Shown one piece after another: positions 8,490 to 64,000 of a DNA stretch of 64,000 bases (its first letter is position 1; each line of letters opens with the position of its first letter). The notes under the pieces were generated by a model that made no database searches, was not told where the DNA came from, and worked only from the letters and a program-made list of their open reading frames with translations. Source of the stretch: Petasospora fabianii (lineage: Eukaryota; Ascomycota; Saccharomycetes; Phaffomycetales; Wickerhamomycetaceae); contig CP048718.1 in NCBI GenBank assembly GCA_022641835.1, positions 1,116,001-1,180,000 of the forward strand. The letters run 5' to 3'. A program made the position numbers and the translations under genes.

Positions 8490-9269
8490 AATGGAATGAA
8501 GCCAATAAAGAAGACCCAAAGGTGTAGAACAACTATCTCTAGAAGGTTGTTATTGATAGTTTATATCTCGTTGCCAATGTTTACAATTCGCGATCTTGCT
8601 GACATAACCCTCTGGCGTGCTGATTACATAAGCAATCAGCACTAAAAAAAGGGTGTGACGTTACTGTTCATCTTCTTATAGTCTACATTACCTGTGGGGA
8701 TTCCCAGTTCTTTTCTTTGTTGATGAGGTATTTCTTTCTGTCATTCATGTTCCATATATAGGTCCACACTTTATTACTTTGTTTCTGGAAATGTCTTCAA
8801 GATCTCAAAAGAAAGTGTGTATGTTTGTACTTGAGATGTATGCTATTGAAAATGGACCAATACAATCACGAGAAACCTGTACCGAAGCACAAGTTATATA
8901 AAGGATTGTCTTGGTGAGTAAGTTAGCAATGGATCTTGTTTGCACCAAAATAGGAACTTAGTATAGCTCAAGGGACACGTAGACCAAAGAGACTAAGCAC
9001 CAGAGTGTTGGCAAACTGAAGTTATATAGTTGACAGACACACACACACATTTCTTCTGAGCCATTTGAAATGGATGACACATAGGATATAAAGTGGAACC
9101 TGTTTTGGAAGTTAAAATGAAAGAAGTAATACCCAATCTCAAGCAAAAACAACAAATGGAAACTCAACACAGCAGCAATTACAACAGAAGTGTCTGAAAC
9201 ACTCTGATGGATAAAACGAAAGCCCTTTTAATCTCAATATACAAACATTAGAAATGATCATCAACAAAA
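8490..9269. other. Intergenic: ATG37-like promoter and RPL12 3' region
   Basis: 780 bp. A strong inverted repeat at 8617-8642 (GTGCTGATT, 8-nt loop, AATCAGCAC) is followed by A7 and lies about 130 bp upstream of the ATG37-like start. A CA repeat is at about 9038-9048. A short ATG frame of 36 codons at 8790 has no support. No tRNA or snoRNA could be recognised. Confidence 0.5.
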
Positions 9270-15964: not shown

Positions 15965-16708
15965 CTATCAATAACACTAATATCTTAATAGATCCTGTAG
16001 CCTTTATACAATTGGAAGTGTAGTCCTCCTATATGGTCCTTTCAAACAGGCGCCAACGCAATTTTGGCTGCCTGGATTTTTTGGGGGGGCTTCGCGAATA
16101 AAACAGGTTCGCGTAAAAAAGCTGTGTTCGCGAATAAAACATGTTCGCGTATCGAACAGGTTCGCGTATCGTGCGAGTTCGCGTGTGGTAGGGGCACTTA
16201 GCCTCTTTCTTATATAGTCTTATGAGTTAATGTATTTGAGTGTTTGTTTCTTTCTTTTAGAGTGTAATTAAGTATTATCTATATATATGGTATTATATAG
16301 TCTGTATGTAATTGATGTCAGAGTTATTATATTGTTATAGGTATTGTGTATACTACAACTGTCTATGTTCTTACTTAAGGCCCTATGTCTAAGGGCTACA
16401 GCAAGGAAGACCCCTAGTTAGTAATATCACCCATATTCTAAGTTGTTAAACGATTATTAGAAGATATCATCAAAGTAGTATCAATGAAATAGATATCATT
16501 AGACTATAACAACTATTACCCTCCGCTAATGGAAGTACTATAGTTCTATCGGTGATAGGACACCGCAAAAAACTCTCACCACCGAGAACAGAAAAGTAAT
16601 CCGGACGTCATCGTCCGTCATCGTCCATTTTACTTTACTCTTTATTCGCCACCTTCAGACCTTCCACTTAGACCTACATCTATCAACTGAGATATATATT
16701 TCTTACCA
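15965..16708. promoter_or_regulatory. Divergent VMA8/LTN1 promoter region
   Basis: 744 bp between divergent starts. Next to the TTCGCG array (listed separately) is a G7 run at 16083-16089. Closer to LTN1 are a TAATCCGGACG word near 16598 and TTCGCCACC at 16645-16653, one base different from the reverse complement of the PACE box GGTGGCAAA. No RNA gene recognised. Confidence 0.5.
16091..16183. promoter_or_regulatory. TTCGCG tandem array, 17-bp period
   Basis: Six TTCGCG hexamers begin at 16091, 16108, 16127, 16144, 16161 and 16178: intervals 17, 19, 17, 17 and 17 bp. The spacers are related AT-rich words such as AATAAAACAGG, so this is a diverged tandem repeat whose core has stayed constant. 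It sits about 130 bp from the VMA8 start and 530 bp from LTN1. CGCG-core sites bind RSC subunits Rsc3/Rsc30 or MBF-type factors in other yeasts; which factor acts here is unknown. Confidence 0.6.
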
Positions 16709-33984: not shown

Positions 33985-34340
33985 ATATGGTTTATACTTA
34001 TGCTTATATGCTTATACTTATATGCTTATACTTATATGCTTATTCATATATACTTATACTTATGATTCATATAAGTCATATATACTTATACATATGATAT
34101 ACATATGATATTCATATGATATACATATGATATTCATATGATTTACATATGATATTCATATGATTTACATATGATATTCATATGATTTACATATGATATT
34201 CATATGATTTACATTTGATAAACATATCATATTCATATGATATTCATATATACATATGATATACATATGATGTATATGATACTCATATGATATATATGAT
34301 CTATTATTCATATGATACATATGATATACATATGATCTAT
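33985..34340. repeat. AT-rich palindromic tandem repeat (CATATGAT-type)
   Basis: Two overlapping arrays. First a CTTATATG/CTTATACTTATATG repeat (about 33990-34090); then a long array of about 22-bp units, each made of CATATGATATT and CATATGATTTA words (about 34085-34330). The CATATG core is itself palindromic, so single strands could fold or the duplex could extrude cruciforms. Not coding; sits 3' of the transporter and about 0.8 kb upstream of RPN4. Confidence 0.75.
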
Positions 34341-51322: not shown

Positions 51323-52441
51323 TTAGTCCTTAGCATCCAATGGCTTCTTAGCAACAAAGAGCATCATTGGAGTGAACAACTTCTGCTTACCACCGGCAAC
51401 AAGACCAATAGCAGCCTCCTCCAAGGCATGAGTAACCTTTTGAGAACCAGCTGGGGCAAGACCCAAAGTCTCCATGAATCCAACAAGGGCAGTGGTGATC
51501 TTTCTACCAAAGGAAGAAGTTCTGAAGAAAGTGGTGATATCGTAAAAGGACTGAACGTACTTCCATTCACCGGTCAATGGGTAATACCATGGAATCTCAT
51601 CACCCATATCAGCAAGATCCTTTTCAAAATCAATCTCGAAACCGACATTCTTCAAAGCTTGTCTAGCAACGTCAACTTTGTACATCTTTGGAATACCATC
51701 ACCAAGTTCAATTTCATAAGCAATCTTTCTGTGTTCTTCGTTTGTCTCATCGTACTTATCGGTCATGACCCACTCATAAACACCAAATACACCACCTGGC
51801 TTCAAAACTTTGTAGATCTCACCATAGACACCTTCGAGAACAGGAGCATGCACAGTGGCCTCAATAGCATACACAGCGTCAAAAGTCTCTGGCTCAAAGT
51901 CCATCTTCATGAAATCACCCTTAACAAACTTCATCTTTGATGCAAGACCAGCCTTCTGAGCATACCAATTAGCCTTCTCAATCTGGTAATCATTGTTGTT
52001 CAATCCAGTAATGTTACAGTTTGTAAATCTGCAAATCTCACGAGCTGGACCACCAACACCACAACCAACGTCCAACACGTTCCAGCCGTCCTGGATGCCA
52101 ATCTTGGAGGCAAGGTAATGCTCATGACGAGCAGTGGCTTGAGTGAATGGTTCTCCCTTGTAGAATCTTGAGAAATGGAAAGATGTACCCCATCCATACT
52201 CATAGAAATCAGTGACAACGTTATAGTATGAGTGTGTACTCTGGTTGTAATCCTCTAAACGTCTCTTTTCAGCCTCATCGTCGGTCTTACCGTCCCAATG
52301 CTTAAGGTAGGCATCAACAGCAGCCTTTTGAGCAGCTTTGTCCTTGGAGAGAATGGCACCCATTCCACTCTTGGAACCAGCGTTTTCACCGTGAAGGGCC
52401 TTTGAGAACTCGGCCTGTGTCTTTCTAAGATCAGCTGACAT
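51323..52441 (-). CDS. ERG6: Sterol C24-methyltransferase Erg6
   Basis: Erg6 methylates zymosterol at C24 with SAM, an ergosterol step in the ER and lipid droplets. The 372-residue product aligns over its full length with S. cerevisiae Erg6 (383). It has the sterol-binding aromatic segment [21 protein letters not shown] motif [34 protein letters not shown] and [11 protein letters not shown], and the C-terminal [18 protein letters not shown]. The frame runs further upstream without [12 protein letters not shown] matches the family start. S. cerevisiae ERG6 is next to YAP1; here they are 45 kb apart. A CA/T-rich short 3' region precedes the VPS3-like gene. Confidence 0.97.
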
Positions 52442-52910
52442 CGTCTGTTTTAGTGTTGAAACTTTTTGCGATGGCAAAATCAAGAGAGAGACAAGAAGAG
52501 AAGAGTGGAAAGAGGAATGCCCACCGCTGTTTTTTTCTTTGGTGTTGACGGTCCAAACCGCGTCTGGGAGCTAAACGAGATGCCGAACGCGTCGAGGCGC
52601 GAGATCGGGAACGAGCAAGAGAGTTCCTCGCGATATGGCGCTAAACGAGAGATACGAACCCCATTATGTTATATATATAAATGTTATATGAGCATGGGTG
52701 GAGTTTTCGTATCCTGTTTTGGTAATATACAGAACTTGCTATATATATCATACAGTTAGTATGTCTGGGACATACATGCTTGGACAAATAAGCGCGTATT
52801 ATATATCATAATGGCATCAGAGTTCATCTATATTTTTTATCATATAGCATTGCGTTCTTTGCGGTGGATCTATATATATATATTATATATACTTATTCCC
52901 GCGGCACTTC
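52442..52910. other. ERG6 promoter and AT-rich spacer
   Basis: Next to ERG6 lies a GC-rich piece (52550-52660) with CGCG words and two related GCTAAACGAGA words (52569 and 52640). It is followed by AT-rich DNA with runs of TATATA (to about 52890). No gene seen. Confidence 0.45.
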
Positions 52911-55010
52911 GTGTAGGACTTAACTTGCTGTTAGTCCCTTGATATATATTTATATAGCACGTCGTATAGGAACTACGGTTGTTCTAGTCCCTTACCTTCT
53001 ACTCTGCAATTAGTGACACAGAGGACTAATCATATACTTATGTCCTTCAAAGACCAAGGCAAACACTGTCTCTCTAATAGAGTTAGTTGAGCCAACGTAG
53101 TAATCTCTGTAAACATCAGGGGTAAAAAGTTTAAAAAGGTAAATATTGGAGTAGTGCTCCTACCGTAACACCGCCTATTCCCGAGGCCCATGTCTTTTGT
53201 GGCAAACTAATTAGTTCATATGTTTCCCAGGTGAAACCCATAAAAATCCTTATGAGTCCCCTAATACCCATTCTCAGTTACAACTCTCTTTCCAAATTTG
53301 CCAAACAGCCATCATGGAACCCTCAGTGCTGAGTTTGAAGTCACAAACGACATGGTCTAACATAGGCTCAATAGCTATATGTGTCCTTGCATGGTAGTCA
53401 TTTGGATTAGCTATAAGTCAAGGCAGGAGTGCTAACTGCCTCCATTCCATTTGTCGTTGTACTCCATATGAAACACTGGGATCTATGAAAACTTTTAACC
53501 CATTTGCAGTAATATTGTGGTCATGTTCAGTTTTCAAGTTAGTTGGGATGAGAGTGGTGTCTTACCACGTATTTTCATACGTGTGAACTTGCATTTTAGG
53601 AGTGTTGCGGTACTCCTATCTATAGGTCGAGGGGAAGAGCTTAACTGCTTTTCATTCACTATTTTCACCTACTGATAAGACTCTGAACTAACGATCCACT
53701 TTCCCCCTCTCCGAGCCTTATGGGTCAATGGACACTGTGGTTCTCCGGTGCTACGTCTGATGGGTTATTGGTTTAACACATGTTTGCATGTGTGTCCTTG
53801 CATGGTATGTCTTTGACGTATCTATAAGACAAGGCAGGTGAGCTAACTGCCTCCATTCCAGTATCTCGTCTTGACAAAGCACTGTAGCTATGAGCTCTCA
53901 CAGGGCTCTTTGGACCACCGTTACTGTTGAATGTTCATGTATTGACTCAGTTAAGTTGCTGGATGTGATGTATAATCATGTGTCTTCACATGTGTCCTCG
54001 CTTTGTCGAGGCTGATGAGCTAACTGCCTTCATTCATTACTACCGCACTCTGACAAGGTACTGAACACCCATGTCATATCTTAGGCTGTCAGTTGACAGC
54101 TTCTCAGAGAGGTGGATTGGTCTCAGGGGAATCGTCCACATTTGGTTACCATTCGAACCGGAGTTGAAGGATGCCCAGCCAAAAGAAGAGTTGCGAGCAG
54201 GGAGGAGTCCGTTGCCTTATATCACACCCAGCTTGTATATACTACATGTCTAGGGTGCCCTAAGGGCCAGTGCTTCTTCTGGGTCAGTGTCTGCATGGAG
54301 GTCGGTGTTATACCTCTTAGTTGAAGGACTCCGTACACCTCCCGCTGGCCCCATCTAACGAGGGGGAAGCCAGTATGGCCTCGCACATGACGGTGGACTA
54401 GACCTACCACGACAGTCATCGGGGTGTGAGCTTCCTTCTTGGGACAGTGACATGGGGGCTCGTGTGCACCTCATTAGTAGGCTCCGGATTCCCCTGTGCC
54501 TGGCAACCCGAACGGGGGAAGTCGGCAAAACCTAGGTGGTGTCCCTCGCAGACAGGTGGAGAAATCCTGGAGGGTCATCCCAGGATGTCGGACACTTCTC
54601 CCCCCAGGTAAAGACTACGGAGATGGTCGTCAGAGTGCCACCTAGGATGGAATAGGAAGGAATTGGTGGTCTCTGGACACGACTATCCCGAATAGTCCCT
54701 GGCAGTGGGAAAAGCCTTACGCTGACCCAAAAGTAGATCCGCGGCCCCTGGGAAGAGGTACTAACGTTGAACATAGACAGGGTGGACAGAGTGATGGATG
54801 ATACCCCGGTGGTGTTGTTCGTCCCCCAGGTGGGGATACTCAGGTGGCCATGAATCGTCATAGGCAGTGAGGTGATGCCTCTCACCATAGTGAGGCATCG
54901 GACAAATTCACTGGGGCCCAACTCTTTGCACACAACCTGTAGTTTCAGCGTAGAGGCCACCATTAAAGCAAGAGGCCCTTCCTTGCTATATTAATGGTCC
55001 CAGTGGGGTC
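52911..55010 (+). ncRNA. Candidate large structured non-coding RNA locus (identity unknown)
   Basis: A 2.1-kb block with no recognisable gene in any frame but with dense inverted repeats. From left to right: two related short hairpin units (52911-53005), a spacer, four diverged ~200-bp units with conserved hairpins (53290-54060), then a GC-rich block (54085-54900) of nested stems. Two counted 60-bp lines in this block are 58% and 63% G+C, well above the AT-rich DNA around it. Some paired arms contain G-U pairs only if the + strand is transcribed. A TATA-rich stretch lies just upstream on that strand. It could be a telomerase-like or other lncRNA, a centromeric element, or decayed selfish DNA; boundaries and strand are inferred. 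Confidence 0.4.
53290..54060 (+). repeat. Four degenerate tandem units (~180-210 bp) with covarying hairpins
   Basis: The anchor CTAACTGCC (CTTAACTGCT in the second unit) lies at 53432, 53640, 53843 and 54020, giving intervals of about 208, 203 and 177 bp. Around each anchor the same order recurs: a CATGT/GTTAAGTTG-type lead, a short hairpin, GTGTCCTTGC, a TCTATAAG stretch, a second stem, the anchor, CATTC, then a TGACAA..ACTG-type word. Sequence identity is modest, but hairpin positions are kept. Confidence 0.65.
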
Positions 55011-56515
55011 AAAAATGTTGGGTAATCATGGGGGAGCGGGGGCATGTCCGATTTTTCGTAGGTATAGGGTCATAGCTCGCTATGTTGTAGGAAGGCGTTG
55101 GAGAGAGAAGGAGGGCAGTTATGCATCTCTAGTGTACATGTAGCGATCCATTAGGCTCGAAGTAGTAATATAAAGCTTGTTTCGTGCTTGTAGATGATGC
55201 GCTGGCCGTGTTATGGTAAAATGAAGTAAAAAACGGGTGGTGTCATGACACGTCAGGGAGACATGTAGTCTTTAATTTGCGCGTATATGACCGAATACAG
55301 GACTCTAAAGTAAGTTTAAGTGGTTGGTATATGATCTCAAGTGCGAAGTTATGTGAAAGAATAGTTTTAGGCCGTGAAACGTGGTTGTCTACTAGAAATT
55401 TAATGGAGTGTAACCGGATACGCTCTACTATCGTGACAAGACACCATTATGGTCTCCACATTCAGCCTCTCTGGGGACAGATGAAGTGATTTTAGCTTAT
55501 AGGGCTGTAATAGGAAGGCAGGAAATGACACTGAAGACAAGTACGGGCTGTTTCAACAGCGTTTCACGACATATGGTCCATTTTAACGATCACAGAAGCT
55601 GCGTGATTTTGGAAAAGGAACGCCACGCAACTGGGACAATCATATACAAAGGAATTGAGCCACAAAGCTGTATCCTGTTGCTGGTATAGTATCTGGCACC
55701 TCTGGCTACGCTCTTCATACAGTTTCTGGTGCTAGTTCTCGTTAGTCATTGCGTATGATTGTAATACACTGGTATAAGACAATTTGATCTAGGAAGCCGT
55801 ACCAGCTGCAAAGACACATGAGAGATATACCTGATTAGCCTGTCCTATGATTTAGGAATAGTATGATTCAAGAGCCTGTAAACTACATGTTATATTGATA
55901 GTATTCCCAAGCTGTCAACCGAGGGAGCTAGTGTATATGATCGTCTGGTATTTCAGTTGATTTCGTCAATCTTTTCTGTACTTTCCTGCACTTTTCGCGA
56001 AGAATATGCACTTGTATCGTAAATATATGCACTGTATTGGTTATGCATTAGTATGCATATTTGTGCATTGATGAAATAAGCTACGCGCTGTCTGTCATAA
56101 TGCTTGATCGAGCTTCCTGTCATGCTCCAAAGTGGACTGATGTGCGATTAAAAGTTTAGTGGTATGGCCTCTGTCTGAAAATATTGAGGATACATATATA
56201 TCTTAACTTGTACAGCATCATTAATCACTGGCTATTGCGAAATTATCATAAAATGAGATGTGGTGTCCGGATAACATCGAAGAGCTGTTTTGACCCTTTC
56301 AATCATCGATTGGAGCTTATACTATTGATTCCAGTGAGACTATTGTTGTTCTTTGATTACGTACAGCAGAGGAAAAGAGACACATCTCCTACTACATGAG
56401 ATATTGTGGGTACAGACGAAAACAATCTTTGATAACTTGAATAACTACGCACGGAAGTAAAATATAGTAATATAGTACAACTATCTATTTTGTATAGAGG
56501 ATATGAACCAACAGC
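55011..56515. other. Gene-free stretch 3' of the GH76-like gene
   Basis: 1.5 kb of mixed composition. No frame has a convincing ATG-started protein, and no tRNA or snoRNA is recognised. A TGTTGGG word at about 55016 recalls LTR ends but has no partner. A TTTTCGCGAAG element is near 55991, and the words TATGCACT/ATGCATA recur at 56005-56070. Nothing else is seen. Confidence 0.5.
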
Positions 56516-57766
56516 TTACTTAGCATTGATTTCTGGACAAACACGGGCACCTTGGAACCAGATTCTAGCAGCAGCACCGGAACCAATCAATGTCTTCACC
56601 ATTGGCTTCTCACCAGCGGAACCTTTACCCTCTTGTGCTCTTTCCTCAGGGTTTGGATCAAACTTCTTGATAGTACCAAATTGCTCCTTAACAAGCTCGT
56701 AATGCTCCTCAGAGAGTCTCCAAACTTCAAACATCTGGAAATAGAGTCCATCCTTTGGATCATAGTGGTATTTTCTGAAGAAGTTCAAATGTCTCTCAAT
56801 CTCATTTTTACAAGCATTGGCAGTAGATTCTGGTGCCTTATCACCAACTACCAATAAGTAATCAGCCAAACCTTCAATGAGAAGTTGGATGAAGTATGAT
56901 GGATCACGCCAGAATCTTCTTCCAGCTTCGACCCAGTCTCTGCAAAAGAGTGACTTGTTACGATTGGTGGCAGCAGCGGCCAAATCATTAGCATGTTTAA
57001 GCCATTTTTCATCCTTTGTAAACTCATACAAGAGGGAACAGGCACTGAGGGCACAACCAGTGTTATAAGTCCACTTCATACCATTAGGACCGTCACTGTT
57101 CTTATCAATACCATCCAACACGGTGTACTCTTTCTTGTCCAACAAGGTATCCAACAACCAATCGGTACACTTAGCACCAAATTGGATATATGTCTGAGCC
57201 TCATTTGGAATGAACTTGGCCAATCTCAAACAAGCTAAAGCAGTCTCACTAGTGGAGATAGCACTGATGTATGGCTTATCTCTGTGCCACAGAACACCAC
57301 CTTGAACCTTGGCACGCTTCTCATTATTCCAACCACCCATCAAATATCTGACAAGCTCACGACCACGATCCAAGTATTCCTTCTTTTGAGTCACTTCATA
57401 AGCAGTGATCAATGCTGAGGCAACTTGTGCGTCATCATCGTAATAGATATCACCGTTACCGTTAAAGTTCTCAACGGCACAGTAACCATACTTATCTGGG
57501 GATCTGTAACGGTACAATGCATTAACAGCTGGTTCAATCAATGGGCCAAGCTCATCTGGATAGATTCTAGCACCATCAACAATGGCCTGTGTAGCAACAG
57601 CAACTGACCAAACATTAAATTTGTTTTCATCACCATAAGTACCAGAACATTTTGGACGAGGAGAGATAAAAGTTCCCTTTTCTGGACTCCAAAAGTGTCC
57701 CCACATGTTTCTCACAACATTATAACCTTCGAGATTCGGATTGTTAACAATTGGGTTCTCTGGCAT
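56516..57766 (-). CDS. GH76-like six-hairpin glycosidase without signal peptide
   Basis: The 416-residue protein starts MPENPIVNNPNLEGYNVVRN, with no signal peptide or membrane segment, so it should be cytosolic. The body looks like an (alpha/alpha)6 barrel of the glycoside hydrolase 76 type (alpha-1,6-mannanase family): YYDDDAQVASALITAYEVT carries the Asp-Asp pair of that family, then YLDRGRELVRYLMGGW, SAISTSETALACLRLAKF, MKWTYNTGCALSACSLLYEFT and FFRKYHYDPKDGLYFQMFEVW follow as successive helices. Secreted yeast relatives (Dfg5, Dcw1) are GPI-anchored wall enzymes; this one must have another role. Codon use is rather biased, suggesting good expression. Catalytic activity is not proven by the motif alone. 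Confidence 0.7.
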   Translation of the reverse strand: MPENPIVNNPNLEGYNVVRNMWGHFWSPEKGTFISPRPKCSGTYGDENKFNVWSVAVATQAIVDGARIYPDELGPLIEPAVNALYRYRSPDKYGYCAVENFNGNGDIYYDDDAQVASALITAYEVTQKKEYLDRGRELVRYLMGGWNNEKRAKVQGGVLWHRDKPYISAISTSETALACLRLAKFIPNEAQTYIQFGAKCTDWLLDTLLDKKEYTVLDGIDKNSDGPNGMKWTYNTGCALSACSLLYEFTKDEKWLKHANDLAAAATNRNKSLFCRDWVEAGRRFWRDPSYFIQLLIEGLADYLLVVGDKAPESTANACKNEIERHLNFFRKYHYDPKDGLYFQMFEVWRLSEEHYELVKEQFGTIKKFDPNPEERAQEGKGSAGEKPMVKTLIGSGAAARIWFQGARVCPEINAK

Positions 57767-58282
57767 TGTGTCCTGTCCTGTCCTTGCTGGATATGTCTTG
57801 TCTTGTCTGGATTGAAAGGTTGCGACAATGTGTCGAAAAGAAAGTGTTGGGTGCGGTTGCGGGTATAAGCTTTTAGAAGTTATCGGTTATGTGAGTTAGA
57901 TCTGGGACGTTTAACCGATGTGTATATGGGATTTTTTCAATATGAGAATATATCTATATAGATATAATGCATTGGTGGGGGGCCCATATGCGGTTTTTAT
58001 ATATGACGAAGCACCCCCCGTGTGCACATCATGAAATTTGGCAGTGCCCCGCGCGTACGCTGGCGCGCCAAACTAGCAAGATTGCTGGTTCCCCGGCCGC
58101 TGCGGAAAAACGTCAGAGGCGTTTTGAGCGTCGGGAAAAGGGCAAGGCTTGACACTATATAGCAAAACAATAAGCGATATATTGATTTATTGCATATTGG
58201 AAGATTTTGGCGAAAAAAATCGACTCCGCTTACAAAATTGGCGAAAATTCACACTATATATTGATCTGAGTATACTATCGAT
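57767..58282. other. Divergent promoter with a GC-rich insert
   Basis: 516 bp. From 57967 to about 58145 the sequence is much more GC-rich than its flanks and has several inverted repeats: GGGGGG with ACCCCCC (57974-58020), AGCAA-GA-TTGCT (about 58076), and AAAACG with CGTTTT (about 58107). An open frame of 61 codons crosses it but resembles nothing known. Confidence 0.45.
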
Positions 58283-58456
58283 ATGTCAAGTACACGTGAT
58301 TCAGAGATTAAGACACTTCAAGGAGCTGTGCAAGTGCTAAAGGGAATTGATGAGATAACAAAGAGCATGACGCGAGATCTTGAAATCGCCAGCAATAATC
58401 AAGTCGTTATACAGCAATCTCTAAGTCGTCTACAAAAGAATACTAAGAATATGTGA
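58283..58456 (+). CDS. Small coiled-coil ORF, 57 residues
   Basis: An ATG-started frame encodes MSSTRDSEIKTLQGAVQVLK and continues as one amphipathic helix to the stop: hydrophobic residues at heptad spacing (LQGAVQVLKGIDEITKSM, then IQQSLSRLQ), Asn/Gln/Lys/Asp elsewhere. It ends only 33 bp before the stop of the convergent GPHR-like gene. Such helices are typical of small subunits of kinetochore (DASH), BLOC-1 or tethering complexes, but I cannot match it to a named one. The start is the only ATG in reach. A longer spliced form with an upstream exon was looked for and not found. Confidence 0.5.
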   Translation: MSSTRDSEIKTLQGAVQVLKGIDEITKSMTRDLEIASNNQVVIQQSLSRLQKNTKNM

Positions 58457-60627: not shown

Positions 60628-62446
60628 TCAAGATCTTGATCTACCAACTTTCAAACTCTTGACTCTTTTAAGCAAGGAGTTACCATTACCACTTTCAACT
60701 TGCAATGCATCGGCGGAATTGGCACGATTGTACGAAGGCATGTTAAGTTTAGCTGGTTGAGATTGAGGAGACGTGTAACTATCACCTCTAATTCTTTGCT
60801 TAATAGATTTCTTTCTTCCCAAACCAGAAGAATTCTTGTTAGCCTCTTCGGCGATAGCACTTTGAGCAGCTGGTGCACCATCGAGGAAAGTTGTTGATCC
60901 TAGACCCAAAGTAGTTTCACCATGGACAGGTGTTGCTCTGCCCTTAGCATCAAATGAAGTGATCTTGACATCGTTCTTGACAGCAGCGAGTGTACTGTCG
61001 GAGCCATTAGCACCACGAGCATATGTGTTTCTTGGTGCAACGGTGGATGGTGGAGCATAAAGGTCATCATCTTCTTCATCTTCACGACCTTGGATGTATC
61101 GCAGTGTAGCATCCTTGTTAACATTTGCTGTGCCTCTAATTGAGTTGTTTGGACCATCAGCTGGGAAGGCAAGCACCGGTGCTGATTTTTGATCTTTGTT
61201 TCTGTGTGGGGTACAAGCGTCAAATGGACCATCATGATGGAATGCACCGCCAAAGAGTCCAGTAACGTCAAGTTTGTCAATTGTATCGACATTCTTAGCT
61301 GGTTTAGAGTCCTTCTCTTTAGATTTAGAGGAACGACTCTTATGTTCTCTGTCTGATCTGTGTCTGTCTGATCTATGTCTTTCAGAGCCTGATCTATGTT
61401 CACGAGATGAACGGTGTCCAGTTTCACCTTCTCTTGTAGATCTTGATCTGTGTGTACCGGAATGAGAAGATGAATGTCTCGACTTGTGTTCTTCAATGTA
61501 CAGTTGCTGTGACTGAGCCGCAGTCTGCTTTTCACGCGGGTATTCCTTCTTGGCTGTGCGTGGACCAGCAGCTTCCTCATAGGAAGGTGGGAGTTCACCA
61601 CCAGACGTCTCTGTGGCATGTCTTCTTGATTTTTCATCAGTGTTGTAATAGTCTGTGGTGGTATTCTTTGGGTTAGATGGCAAACTTCCTGAATTACCAT
61701 TGTGTCTGCTGCCTGTTGAAGAGCGAGAGACTGGAGCAAACGGATCTGTAGAGCGTGGTGGAGGCATCGAGTTACTAAGCATAATGTGTTAGTATATATA
61801 AATCTTTTGATAACCCTTTTCACACCTTGATCAATGGGACCTCTGTGTAGTTTATATTGTGTCATGTAAGGGGGCACTGGGGGCAAAAATAGATAGTAGC
61901 TCAACCTGCAGGTCTAGCCATTGCCCCATTGCGTCTCTTGCTCTGTTGCGAGAGAGAGCCATGAAACAGGGCAAACGTCTCAATGCGGAATGACGAGGCT
62001 TCAGCAGGCTGCGCAGCTGCTAGAGACAAAAAACAAGTCTCAACATTACCCTGGTTAACTGCTTCTCCTTGTATATATTGACCATCTTAGCCGCCCAGTA
62101 CATGTGGCAATGACGTGCTAAGAGAGCGCGAGGTCCCACACCATTCAATCATGGGAAAAAAGGGGCAAGAGAATAGAAGAAACGAGTAAGGGAAAAAAGA
62201 TACTTACGATCCATTGCTTGTAGTTCTTTCATAACCTGGTCTTTGTGGTTGGAAAAGTTCACCTTGTTCATCATCAGAACTGAAACTCATCTGACTTTGA
62301 TTACGTTGAACCCAAGAGCTGAATCCAGGATCACGCCCAATGTTAGAGTCTTGCGACGCGTTACGGAATGGGTTATTAGAAGAGAAAGGACGCGAGAGTG
62401 AAGGTCTCTGTTGACCGCCCGTAGAATGGTTTCTATGAACGGACAT
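60628..62446 (-). CDS. PAL1: Pal1-family cell-morphology/endocytosis protein (one intron)
   Basis: Pal1 proteins act at cortical endocytic sites and in polarised growth. Exon 1 is 62208-62446, the intron 61775-62207 (433 nt, GTAAGT donor, TACTAAC branch, TTAG acceptor) and exon 2 60628-61774; the product is 461 residues (499 in S. cerevisiae). Exon 1 has the NPF motif in SSNNPFRNASQD, a ligand for EH-domain proteins such as Ede1. Exon 2 opens with a second PF-containing segment (STDPFAPVSRSS), an ELPPSYEEAAG motif of the PPxY kind, a long Ser/Arg/His-rich region, then the family core LDVTGLFGGAFHHDGPFDAC and TPHRNKDQKSAPVLAFPADG. The basic C-terminus ends KSLKVGRSRS. Confidence 0.88.
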
Positions 62447-63210
62447 GTCTGTTGTTATATGTCTGTTGTATGTCTTTGTTGTGTTCTTCTCTTTGATCAC
62501 CTCTGGGCGGCTAATACGTATCAAGTTTGCCCTTTGTTTTGCCTTTTGTTTTGTTTGAGAGCGTTAACTTTTCCTTTCGATCCCCGCGCGGGTGTCCGGG
62601 TTTATTTGTCCTTTCTTCAATGTTTTATCACCCTTTTGTTTCAATTTCTAGCCGTTTCCTTGATGGGGTGTAATTTGAATTGTAGACTAGTAAAGTAATT
62701 GGTACCGTACCTTTTTACTTTTACTTTTCCTTTCTTGCTCTTTACTCTTTTTATCCGTACCCCTTACCGGCAAAAGTGGCGGAGCCCATTTCTTGGGGGT
62801 TTTGCTCAACTTCCTAAAACTGAAATTGCTCCGCCCTTAACTTCTGCGCCACACAAGTCCCAATAAGGAAATATTTGTATTACTTTGCCCCAGATCGCGC
62901 AATTACCATATTTGGATGAATAGCGCAGAAACGCGTAAACATCTTTCTCGCCATTAGCTCAATTAGGTAACTTCATATGTTTCAATCATTATAGAGTGCC
63001 ATCTCCCAGAGCGGAGTAGTGTATCTCCTGATAGGAGGGGTGTATCAAGTAGCTATTGGGAATAAAGCATCATAAACTTCTCTTATATATATATATGATA
63101 TAATATCAGCAGCTTACAAGCACAACGATCCATGTAATGGTCCAGCCATTATATGGTGTCTAATCTCAATAGTGCATCCAGTGCACATGACAATAAATCA
63201 ACACACAACA
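62447..63210. other. Intergenic between PAL1 and the PIB2-like gene
   Basis: 764 bp. It contains a CCCGCGCGGG palindrome near 62583, pyrimidine-rich DNA (62520-62770), an ATCGCGCAATT word near 62886 and an AT-rich end. No gene or RNA recognised. Confidence 0.45.
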
Positions 63211-64000
63211 TTAGAAAGAACTCCAACTCCAATCAGCAGGAACACTTGACATCTCTCTTTGTCTCCCATTAACAGAGTTACTGGGCTCCATACCATTTTG
63301 TGTCTGTGTTTCGAGTTTCTTATTATGACCTTTAAAATCAGGCATCATATCAATTTTGAAACTGTCAACCAAATATGCCCCCCATTCTTTACCACAACTA
63401 AAGCAAACTTTGCACAGGATACCATTAACATCAAATCTGCAATTATAGTTTAATTTAGCCTTTGATAACAAGCATTTCCCACAAAAGATCTCACCACATT
63501 TACGACAATGATGACGACGATTCATCAATGAGAAAGTACAACCACAATCAGAACAATTAACAGTTGCATTATTTGGTTTCCAATGATCACGAGACACCAT
63601 GGTACTTGAACTATCAATAACGCCAGCGTCATCATCATTAGTCCCCATATTGGACTGTGGTGGATGTTCAAGTGGTCGTAAGACACATGGTATATAATTT
63701 GGTGTCTTTGGATCATCAACAGGTCTGATTGGAGTTAGGGCAAACCGTGGTATTTTGCGATTGGTAAGCATAGTGATTGATTCATCAGAGTTTTTCTTTG
63801 ATGAAAGTGGTGAAGTATTTGAAGTTGACGGTTCATGATTGGCAATCATATTACCAGATGACATATAATCAGATAAAGTGTAATTAGTCATGGCAGACGT
63901 TGAAGGTGCAGGTGATACACCATACGTGTTGGATCCAAGTGCAACTTCTGCAGGTTGATATCTGCGACCAGATGATGAATGTTGTTCCGTTGGATGATCA
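63211..64000 (-). CDS. FYVE zinc-finger protein, probable Pib2 (cut by window edge)
   Basis: The frame is open to the right edge, so only the C-terminal ~262 residues are seen; internal ATGs (for example at 63891) are unlikely to be the true start. The FYVE domain begins RDHWKPNNATVNCSDCGCTF and has the PI3P-binding signature RRHHCRKCG, then CGKCLLSK, YNCRFDVNGILCKVC with the full set of Cys pairs. A linker and the C-terminal tail PADWSWSSF follow. A FYVE finger plus a conserved Trp-Ser-Ser-Phe-type tail fits Pib2, the vacuolar activator of TORC1 in response to glutamine. Other FYVE proteins lack such a tail, but I recall the tail motif rather than having aligned it. Confidence 0.65.
   Translation of the reverse strand, partial: DHPTEQHSSSGRRYQPAEVALGSNTYGVSPAPSTSAMTNYTLSDYMSSGNMIANHEPSTSNTSPLSSKKNSDESITMLTNRKIPRFALTPIRPVDDPKTPNYIPCVLRPLEHPPQSNMGTNDDDAGVIDSSSTMVSRDHWKPNNATVNCSDCGCTFSLMNRRHHCRKCGEIFCGKCLLSKAKLNYNCRFDVNGILCKVCFSCGKEWGAYLVDSFKIDMMPDFKGHNKKLETQTQNGMEPSNSVNGRQREMSSVPADWSWSSF

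Follow-up and report, generated by a model that had tools for sequence, protein, structure and literature searches.

A Tandem Array of Four Predicted Four-Way-Junction RNA Domains with Pairing Kept under Sequence Change in a Budding Yeast

What is encoded in a 3949-bp gap without credible open reading frames (positions 52570-56519) in an otherwise gene-dense window of budding yeast DNA? The window here is the whole 64-kb stretch that was analysed, and the gap is flanked by two minus-strand genes, one for an ERG6-like sterol methyltransferase (Pfam Sterol_MT_C) and the other of the GH76 family. Gap sizes were computed from stop-to-stop frames of at least 150 aa, and one frame, on the minus strand at 54535-54990 (152 aa, without a match in Pfam), was omitted from the count; the second-largest gap of the window measures 1506 bp. 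The gap houses a tandem array for which the sequence-only reading saw no protein explanation, and this holds as far as we tested it, since any frame of at least 60 aa that overlaps the units runs for no more than 65 aa from stop to stop. That reading had proposed a selected RNA structure, on the grounds that four units carry a short hairpin at the same place with different arms, together with a second stem that changes through a wobble intermediate.

Elsewhere in the window, the snR80 snoRNA at 8836-9020 is the sole Rfam match at the gathering threshold, and the tRNA search returned no tRNA. For the ATP synthase OSCP protein the best solved relative, 5lqx, is one that we take to be a Pichia angusta structure. 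CTG is probably decoded as leucine in the window, because, by our reading of a SYF1 alignment, six of seven CTG codons face Leu, Ile, Met or Phe and none faces Ser or Ala.

Four predicted closed domains and their probable origin

All the hairpin arms named earlier are present at the places given, with start-to-start distances of 206, 210 and 201 bp between successive copies of this hairpin (H1). The array is therefore real, but its extent, previously put at 53290-54060, should read 53312-54071. In predicted folds of the plus strand the hairpins proved to be the tips of four larger closed domains, each of about 140-185 nt, in which a closing stem of 22-34 pairs opens into a four-way junction that bears the hairpins H1, H2 and H3. 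The units stand in direct order, separated by spacers of 28, 46 and 43 nt.

Unit 1 (U1, type A) spans 53312-53488 and has 34 closing pairs (53312-53355/53447-53488) and three branches: H1 at 53360-53382, which is longer than had been claimed (ACATA GGCT / AGCT a TATGT), H2 at 53385-53423 with an inner hairpin at 53391-53414, and H3 at 53426-53443. Unit 2 (U2, type B; 53517-53699) likewise has 34 closing pairs (53517-53559/53657-53699) and three branches, with H1 at 53566-53583, H2 at 53588-53631, its inner hairpin at 53597-53618 and H3 at 53634-53653. The closing stem of unit 3 (U3, type A'; 53746-53884) is shorter, with 22 pairs (53746-53771/53858-53884), and its three branches comprise H1 at 53776-53793, the inner hairpin at 53804-53822 and H3 at 53832-53852. 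Unit 4 (U4, type B'; 53928-54071) has 30 closing pairs (53932-53970/54035-54067) and again three branches, H1 at 53977-53992, a short H2 at 53996-54011 and H3 at 54014-54034; it has lost the inner hairpin, and the outer part of its H3 is only 0.47 probable. The H1 loops all have four bases (CAAU, UUUC, UUUG and UCUU in U1 to U4).

The second stem of the sequence-only reading fared less well. Its arms are present as described, at 53385-53389/53419-53423 in U1, within 53796-53834 in U3 (CCTTG/CAAGG in both) and at 53996-54000/54007-54011 in U4, and the U2 form (CTTG at 53588-53591, CGAG at 53628-53631) contains one U-G pair on the plus strand. This is, however, the weakest helix of the domain: its pair probability is 0.42 in U2, and in U3 it competes with H3, which replaces it in the minimum-energy fold. 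Better support comes from two elements absent from that reading, namely the long closing stems and the hairpin inside the second stem, whose arms differ between units and whose pair probability is 0.71-0.98 in U1-U3.

The only strong conservation of primary sequence lies around H2/H3, with invariant UAACU and the consensus GCUAACUGCCUYCAUUC. It is strongest in the H3 loop and 3' arm, where the U1 copy reads GCTAACTGCCTYCATTC (53431-53447, plus strand). Counterparts occur in U3 (53842-53858) and U4 (54019-54035) and, more diverged, in U2 (53641-53657), and TAACT is invariant in all four units in our alignments. This region corresponds to a direct repeat family (D2) of three copies.

End to end, the U1-U2 block aligns with U3-U4 at 263 identical positions among 346 ungapped columns, with a score of 71.4 against -10.7 (sd 5.1) for shuffles. 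Informative columns that group U1 with U3 and U2 with U4 numbered 14, against 6 and 2 for the other groupings, in two alignment modes, and 12 against 6 and 2 in a third. Duplication of a two-unit block is thus the probable origin of the array. This history is not certain, since local scores place U1 and U3 together (56.5) but U2 no closer to U4 (27.5) than U3 is to U4 (27.5) or U2 to U3 (29.0). A core covariance model for which U1-U4 served as input found these units again and revealed no fifth copy; its next match had an E value of 5.6 in the window and 0.41 in an unfiltered search of 52400-56600.

Pairing kept while the arms diverged

The compensation claim was examined by a swap test, in which the folding energy of the units' own arms was compared with that of arms exchanged between units over 24 assignments. 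On the plus strand the own-arm assignment ranked first of 24 for the whole closing stem (mean -31.3 kcal/mol, versus -21.2 when swapped), and also for H1, for the halves of H2 and for the inner stem P2. Ranks on the minus strand were equally good (1/24 for closing stem, H1 and H2; 2/24 for P2), and the test therefore shows that the arms are matched to each other but identifies neither the type of nucleic acid nor the strand. H3 failed (5/24 on plus, 15/24 on minus) and so lends no support from compensation. A narrow window restricted to P1 ranked 9/24 on the plus strand and 4/24 on the minus, against 1/24 on both strands for the full closing stem.

Further controls bore on the closing stems and the core. 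When the closing-stem arms were randomly substituted at 20-40%, mean energies fell between -16.3 and -20.3 kcal/mol, compared with -22.2 to -33.3 for the real stems. Shuffled arms reached the real stem energy in 0, 1, 7 and 28 of 1000 trials for U1, U2, U3 and U4, respectively; the U4 stem is the least distinctive and the weakest case. In the core alignment A2, 91.9% of cells at 16 chosen pairs are paired, whereas partners slid by 1-3 columns give 21-61%. Of 500 letter shuffles, 2 reached the real value for each of percentage paired, covariation score and doubly changed cells, whereas the number of doubly changed pairs (4/16) was matched by 80 and that of pair types by 340. Shuffles of this sort can be exceeded by sequences that are related to each other, and the A2 structure was partly derived from the same rows. 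Three of the seven H1 pairs are changed on both sides. At one of the H1 pairs (columns 5/21) U1 and U4 have U-A where U2 and U3 have C-G, a pattern that conflicts with the U1+U3 grouping and hence implies at least two separate double changes under it. Scored with RNAalifold against column shuffles, three MAFFT alignments had z scores of -2.2, -4.1 and -4.6 on the plus strand and -1.1, -0.8 and -4.2 on the minus, the spread between modes indicating that this measure is alignment-dependent.

Across these four paralogues, a set below R-scape grade, pairing is maintained by compensating changes beyond chance. The earlier claim of selected RNA structure stands to the extent that pairing is kept under sequence change beyond the swapped-arm, slid-partner and most shuffle controls; selection itself is not proven by four paralogous rows, and the wobble count does not rise above its swapped-arm control. 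Selected RNA structure is nevertheless the likeliest reading of the kept pairing.

Strand, stability and neighbouring structures

Folded as the plus strand, U1 to U4 have minimum free energies of -54.5, -60.5, -52.4 and -39.0 and z scores of -2.57, -4.29, -4.79 and -1.74, respectively; the minus-strand z scores are -2.75, -2.89, -2.34 and -2.34, so that U1 and U4 are about equally stable folded as the minus strand. None of 300 plus-strand shuffles was as stable as U2 or as U3, and 19 were as stable as U4. With slightly different edges the z scores became -2.15, -4.26, -4.37 and -2.30 on the plus strand and -2.53, -2.67, -1.61 and -1.37 on the minus. Folding of 53300-54080 in fixed windows gave means of only -0.58 (plus) and -0.52 (minus), because only windows that match the domain edges reveal the signal and fixed windows miss most of it.

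A span-limited fold of the whole window on both strands, made in 500-base pieces without supplying the positions of the units, recovered 46 domains that have three branches and 22 or more closing pairs, four of them within 0.76 kb of the plus strand; the scan's size range, 115-185 nt, was chosen after the units had been seen. Within 53312-54071 on the plus strand the domains of this kind are exactly U1-U4, and the scan also lists a three-branch domain with 14 pairs at 53398-53551 and a two-branch domain with 24 pairs at 53885-54022. The Poisson probability of four such domains in 0.76 kb of one strand is about 1e-4, a figure that is only rough since the units are homologous.

The topology is retained in all four units on the plus strand and in two, U1 and U4, on the minus. 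G-U outnumbers A-C 32:9, which differs from a 50:50 expectation (p 0.0004); swapped arms give 89:46, and at p 0.18 (Fisher) against this control we did not take the wobble count as proof of strand. The topology and the predicted folds of U2 and U3 favour the plus strand, short of proving it.

Downstream of the array the plus strand contains a long imperfect hairpin at 54613-54698 (z -4.80, versus -2.78 on the minus strand) and, at 54766-54949, an element (D5), a candidate fifth domain, with a closing stem and three hairpins as in the units (minimum free energy -77.2; z -3.87, versus -1.89 on the minus strand). Neither resembles the units in sequence, with similarity z scores of -1.3 to 1.0 for the hairpin and -0.1 to 1.7 between D5 and U1-U4, and D5 was missed by the covariance model. 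We conjecture that both may be part of the same RNA as the units. Other plus-strand folds occur at 54359-54441 (z -2.3) and 54958-55001 (z -3.6), and the segments 54187-54356 (z -1.0), 54362-54495 (z -0.4) and 54714-54873 (z -1.5) are unremarkable.

Outside the gap, a further three-hairpin domain with 34 closing pairs lies on the plus strand at 62359-62509, between the frames of its flanking genes (z -4.2, versus -1.3 on the minus strand). Its sequence is not clearly similar to that of any unit (best z 2.2, with U3), and 61800-63300 gave no Rfam match at E values up to 1.

A proposed RNA, its alternatives and its relatives

The computations show four predicted domains that share a topology and have kept their pairing while the sequences of their arms diverged. 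Our preferred reading, to which we give a probability of roughly 55%, is that a noncoding RNA is encoded on the plus strand from about 53.3 kb onwards, and that its four paralogous four-way-junction domains serve as tandem protein-binding modules. The domains would be transcribed as one RNA, because spacers as short as those observed leave scant room for separate promoters; transcription might start divergently in the AT-rich sequence that lies upstream of the sterol methyltransferase gene, and it might continue through the downstream structured elements to about 54.95 kb. The fixed shape together with the conserved H2/H3 sequence would form a binding site for one protein, and the array could then act as a multivalent scaffold or sponge that holds several copies of that protein at once. 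We infer such multivalent binding from the presence of a fixed shape and a conserved loop in four tandem copies, with which it is consistent. More tentatively, the locus might produce a large modular yeast RNA of an undescribed kind, of about 1.7 kb or more, comprising U1-U4 from a duplicated dimer plus the elements at 54766-54949 and 54613-54698; such a multivalent protein scaffold would have had its sequence largely replaced while its three-hairpin shape was kept.

Alternatively, each domain might act alone as a small RNA of about 140-185 nt, the four being cut from one precursor in the manner of polycistronic snoRNAs. In polycistronic snoRNA clusters several closed structured RNAs share a transcript with short spacers, and long stems can be RNase III substrates. 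The closed domains, their spacing of 28, 46 and 43 nt and their long closing stems, which could be such substrates, are all compatible with this arrangement. The snoRNA motifs, however, are not consistently present in U1-U4. No unit has an exact box C (RUGAUGA), with one-mismatch forms in U1, U2 and U4; U2 and U4 have CUGA on their 3' side, and U1 and U3 lack it there. The units thus do not all carry the two boxes that box C/D snoRNAs have at the base of a terminal stem. H/ACA snoRNAs have ACA three bases from the 3' end; with the edges used here, ACA falls within the last 8 bases in one unit of four, U4. Nor do the H1 loops conform to the AGNN rule. The Pol III B box GWTCRANNC has no match on either strand of 52900-56500. 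Rfam 15 gave no match at the gathering score in 52400-56700, the best of five sub-threshold hits reaching 21 bits against the required 80 (E 1.2). We regard separate small RNAs as unlikely.

Somewhat more doubtful is an origin at the DNA level, in which the units are inverted repeats of a decayed satellite or centromere-linked repeat and template-switch correction has kept the arms alike. The 3.95-kb gap falls within the size range of yeast centromeres, for which PMC12711049 reports 2.2-9.3 kb in Wickerhamomyces canadensis. The near-equal stability of U1 and U4 on both strands, the equally good minus-strand swap ranks of three helices and the unproven strand bias also speak for this origin. 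Inverted repeats account poorly for the retention of topology in four units on the plus strand versus two on the minus, for the conserved H3 loop sequence and for the direct order of the units. Wobbles, bulges and indels, moreover, lie at differing places in each unit, and the arms are therefore not perfect palindromes.

That the array is part of a known large yeast RNA, chiefly telomerase RNA, that has diverged beyond the reach of Rfam is improbable. One Sm-like site, GATTTTGG, occurs at 55605, but by a rough estimate a single such match in 3.6 kb is unremarkable, and we know of no repeated four-way or tandem paralogous domains in telomerase RNA, such domains being the feature that sets the array apart. 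The likeness is to a long, fast-evolving structured RNA missed by homology models, as yeast telomerase RNA is portrayed in PMC6115765. Chance hairpins in a diverged tandem repeat are scarcely credible: three-branch domains are not rare in the window and the region does not stand out in its mean folding z, but the register common to four units, the swap tests and the compensated pairs all speak against chance.

An intron reading was rejected, as GTATGT, GCTAAC and CAG are aligned in a single unit, U3, and not across the array; GTATGT occurs once on the plus strand of 52900-56500.

As for relatives of the proposed protein-binding RNA, XIST (in its A-repeat) and roX are noncoding RNAs in which a module occurs in tandem diverged copies and is proposed to recruit more than one molecule of a protein. 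The predicted units resemble them as tandem diverged copies of one structural module, but the modules of XIST and roX are short hairpins, whereas those of this budding yeast are 140-185-nt four-way junctions on long stems. CsrB and RsmZ are bacterial sponge RNAs with simple GGA hairpins; by analogy, an array of similar hairpins could titrate one protein, although titration by the units here is conjectural and the domains differ from such simple bacterial hairpins. The excerpted text of PMC8216456 reports 17 fungal structural RNAs and describes none of this kind. Its conserved intergenic structures 1-4 are likewise unassigned structured intergenic RNAs of ascomycetes, but structures 1, 3 and 4 combine an H box with a single hairpin, in contrast to the tandem four-way domains found here. 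In the open-licence literature, no title or abstract opening that our search terms brought up describes such an array. A gapped pattern searched against viral contigs and a 26-base pattern searched against bacterial and archaeal genome contigs gave no exact match, a result with little bearing on fungi.

If transcribed, the array would represent a large structured RNA family of budding yeasts that is missing from Rfam, and one genome would suffice to read its structure, thanks to the four internal paralogues. The array would also offer a tractable fungal model of tandem RNA domains that diverge in sequence while keeping their shape, and of the roles of multivalent RNA scaffolds.

We made several minor observations in the window. 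Close to the far end of the gap, at 55960-56080, several TATGCAC/TATGCAT-like motifs occur within 120 bp, and this segment has a minus-strand fold with z of about -2.9. A small 63-aa frame on the plus strand at 58265-58453, upstream of the GH76 gene, is possibly a real gene; judged by eye, its product presumably resembles a DASH-complex subunit. A short array of 17-bp units, TTCGCGTATAAAACAGG and GTTCGCGTATCGAACAA, lies at 16091-16184, and a minisatellite at 34087-34336 comprises about 23 copies of the 11-bp unit TATACATATGA.
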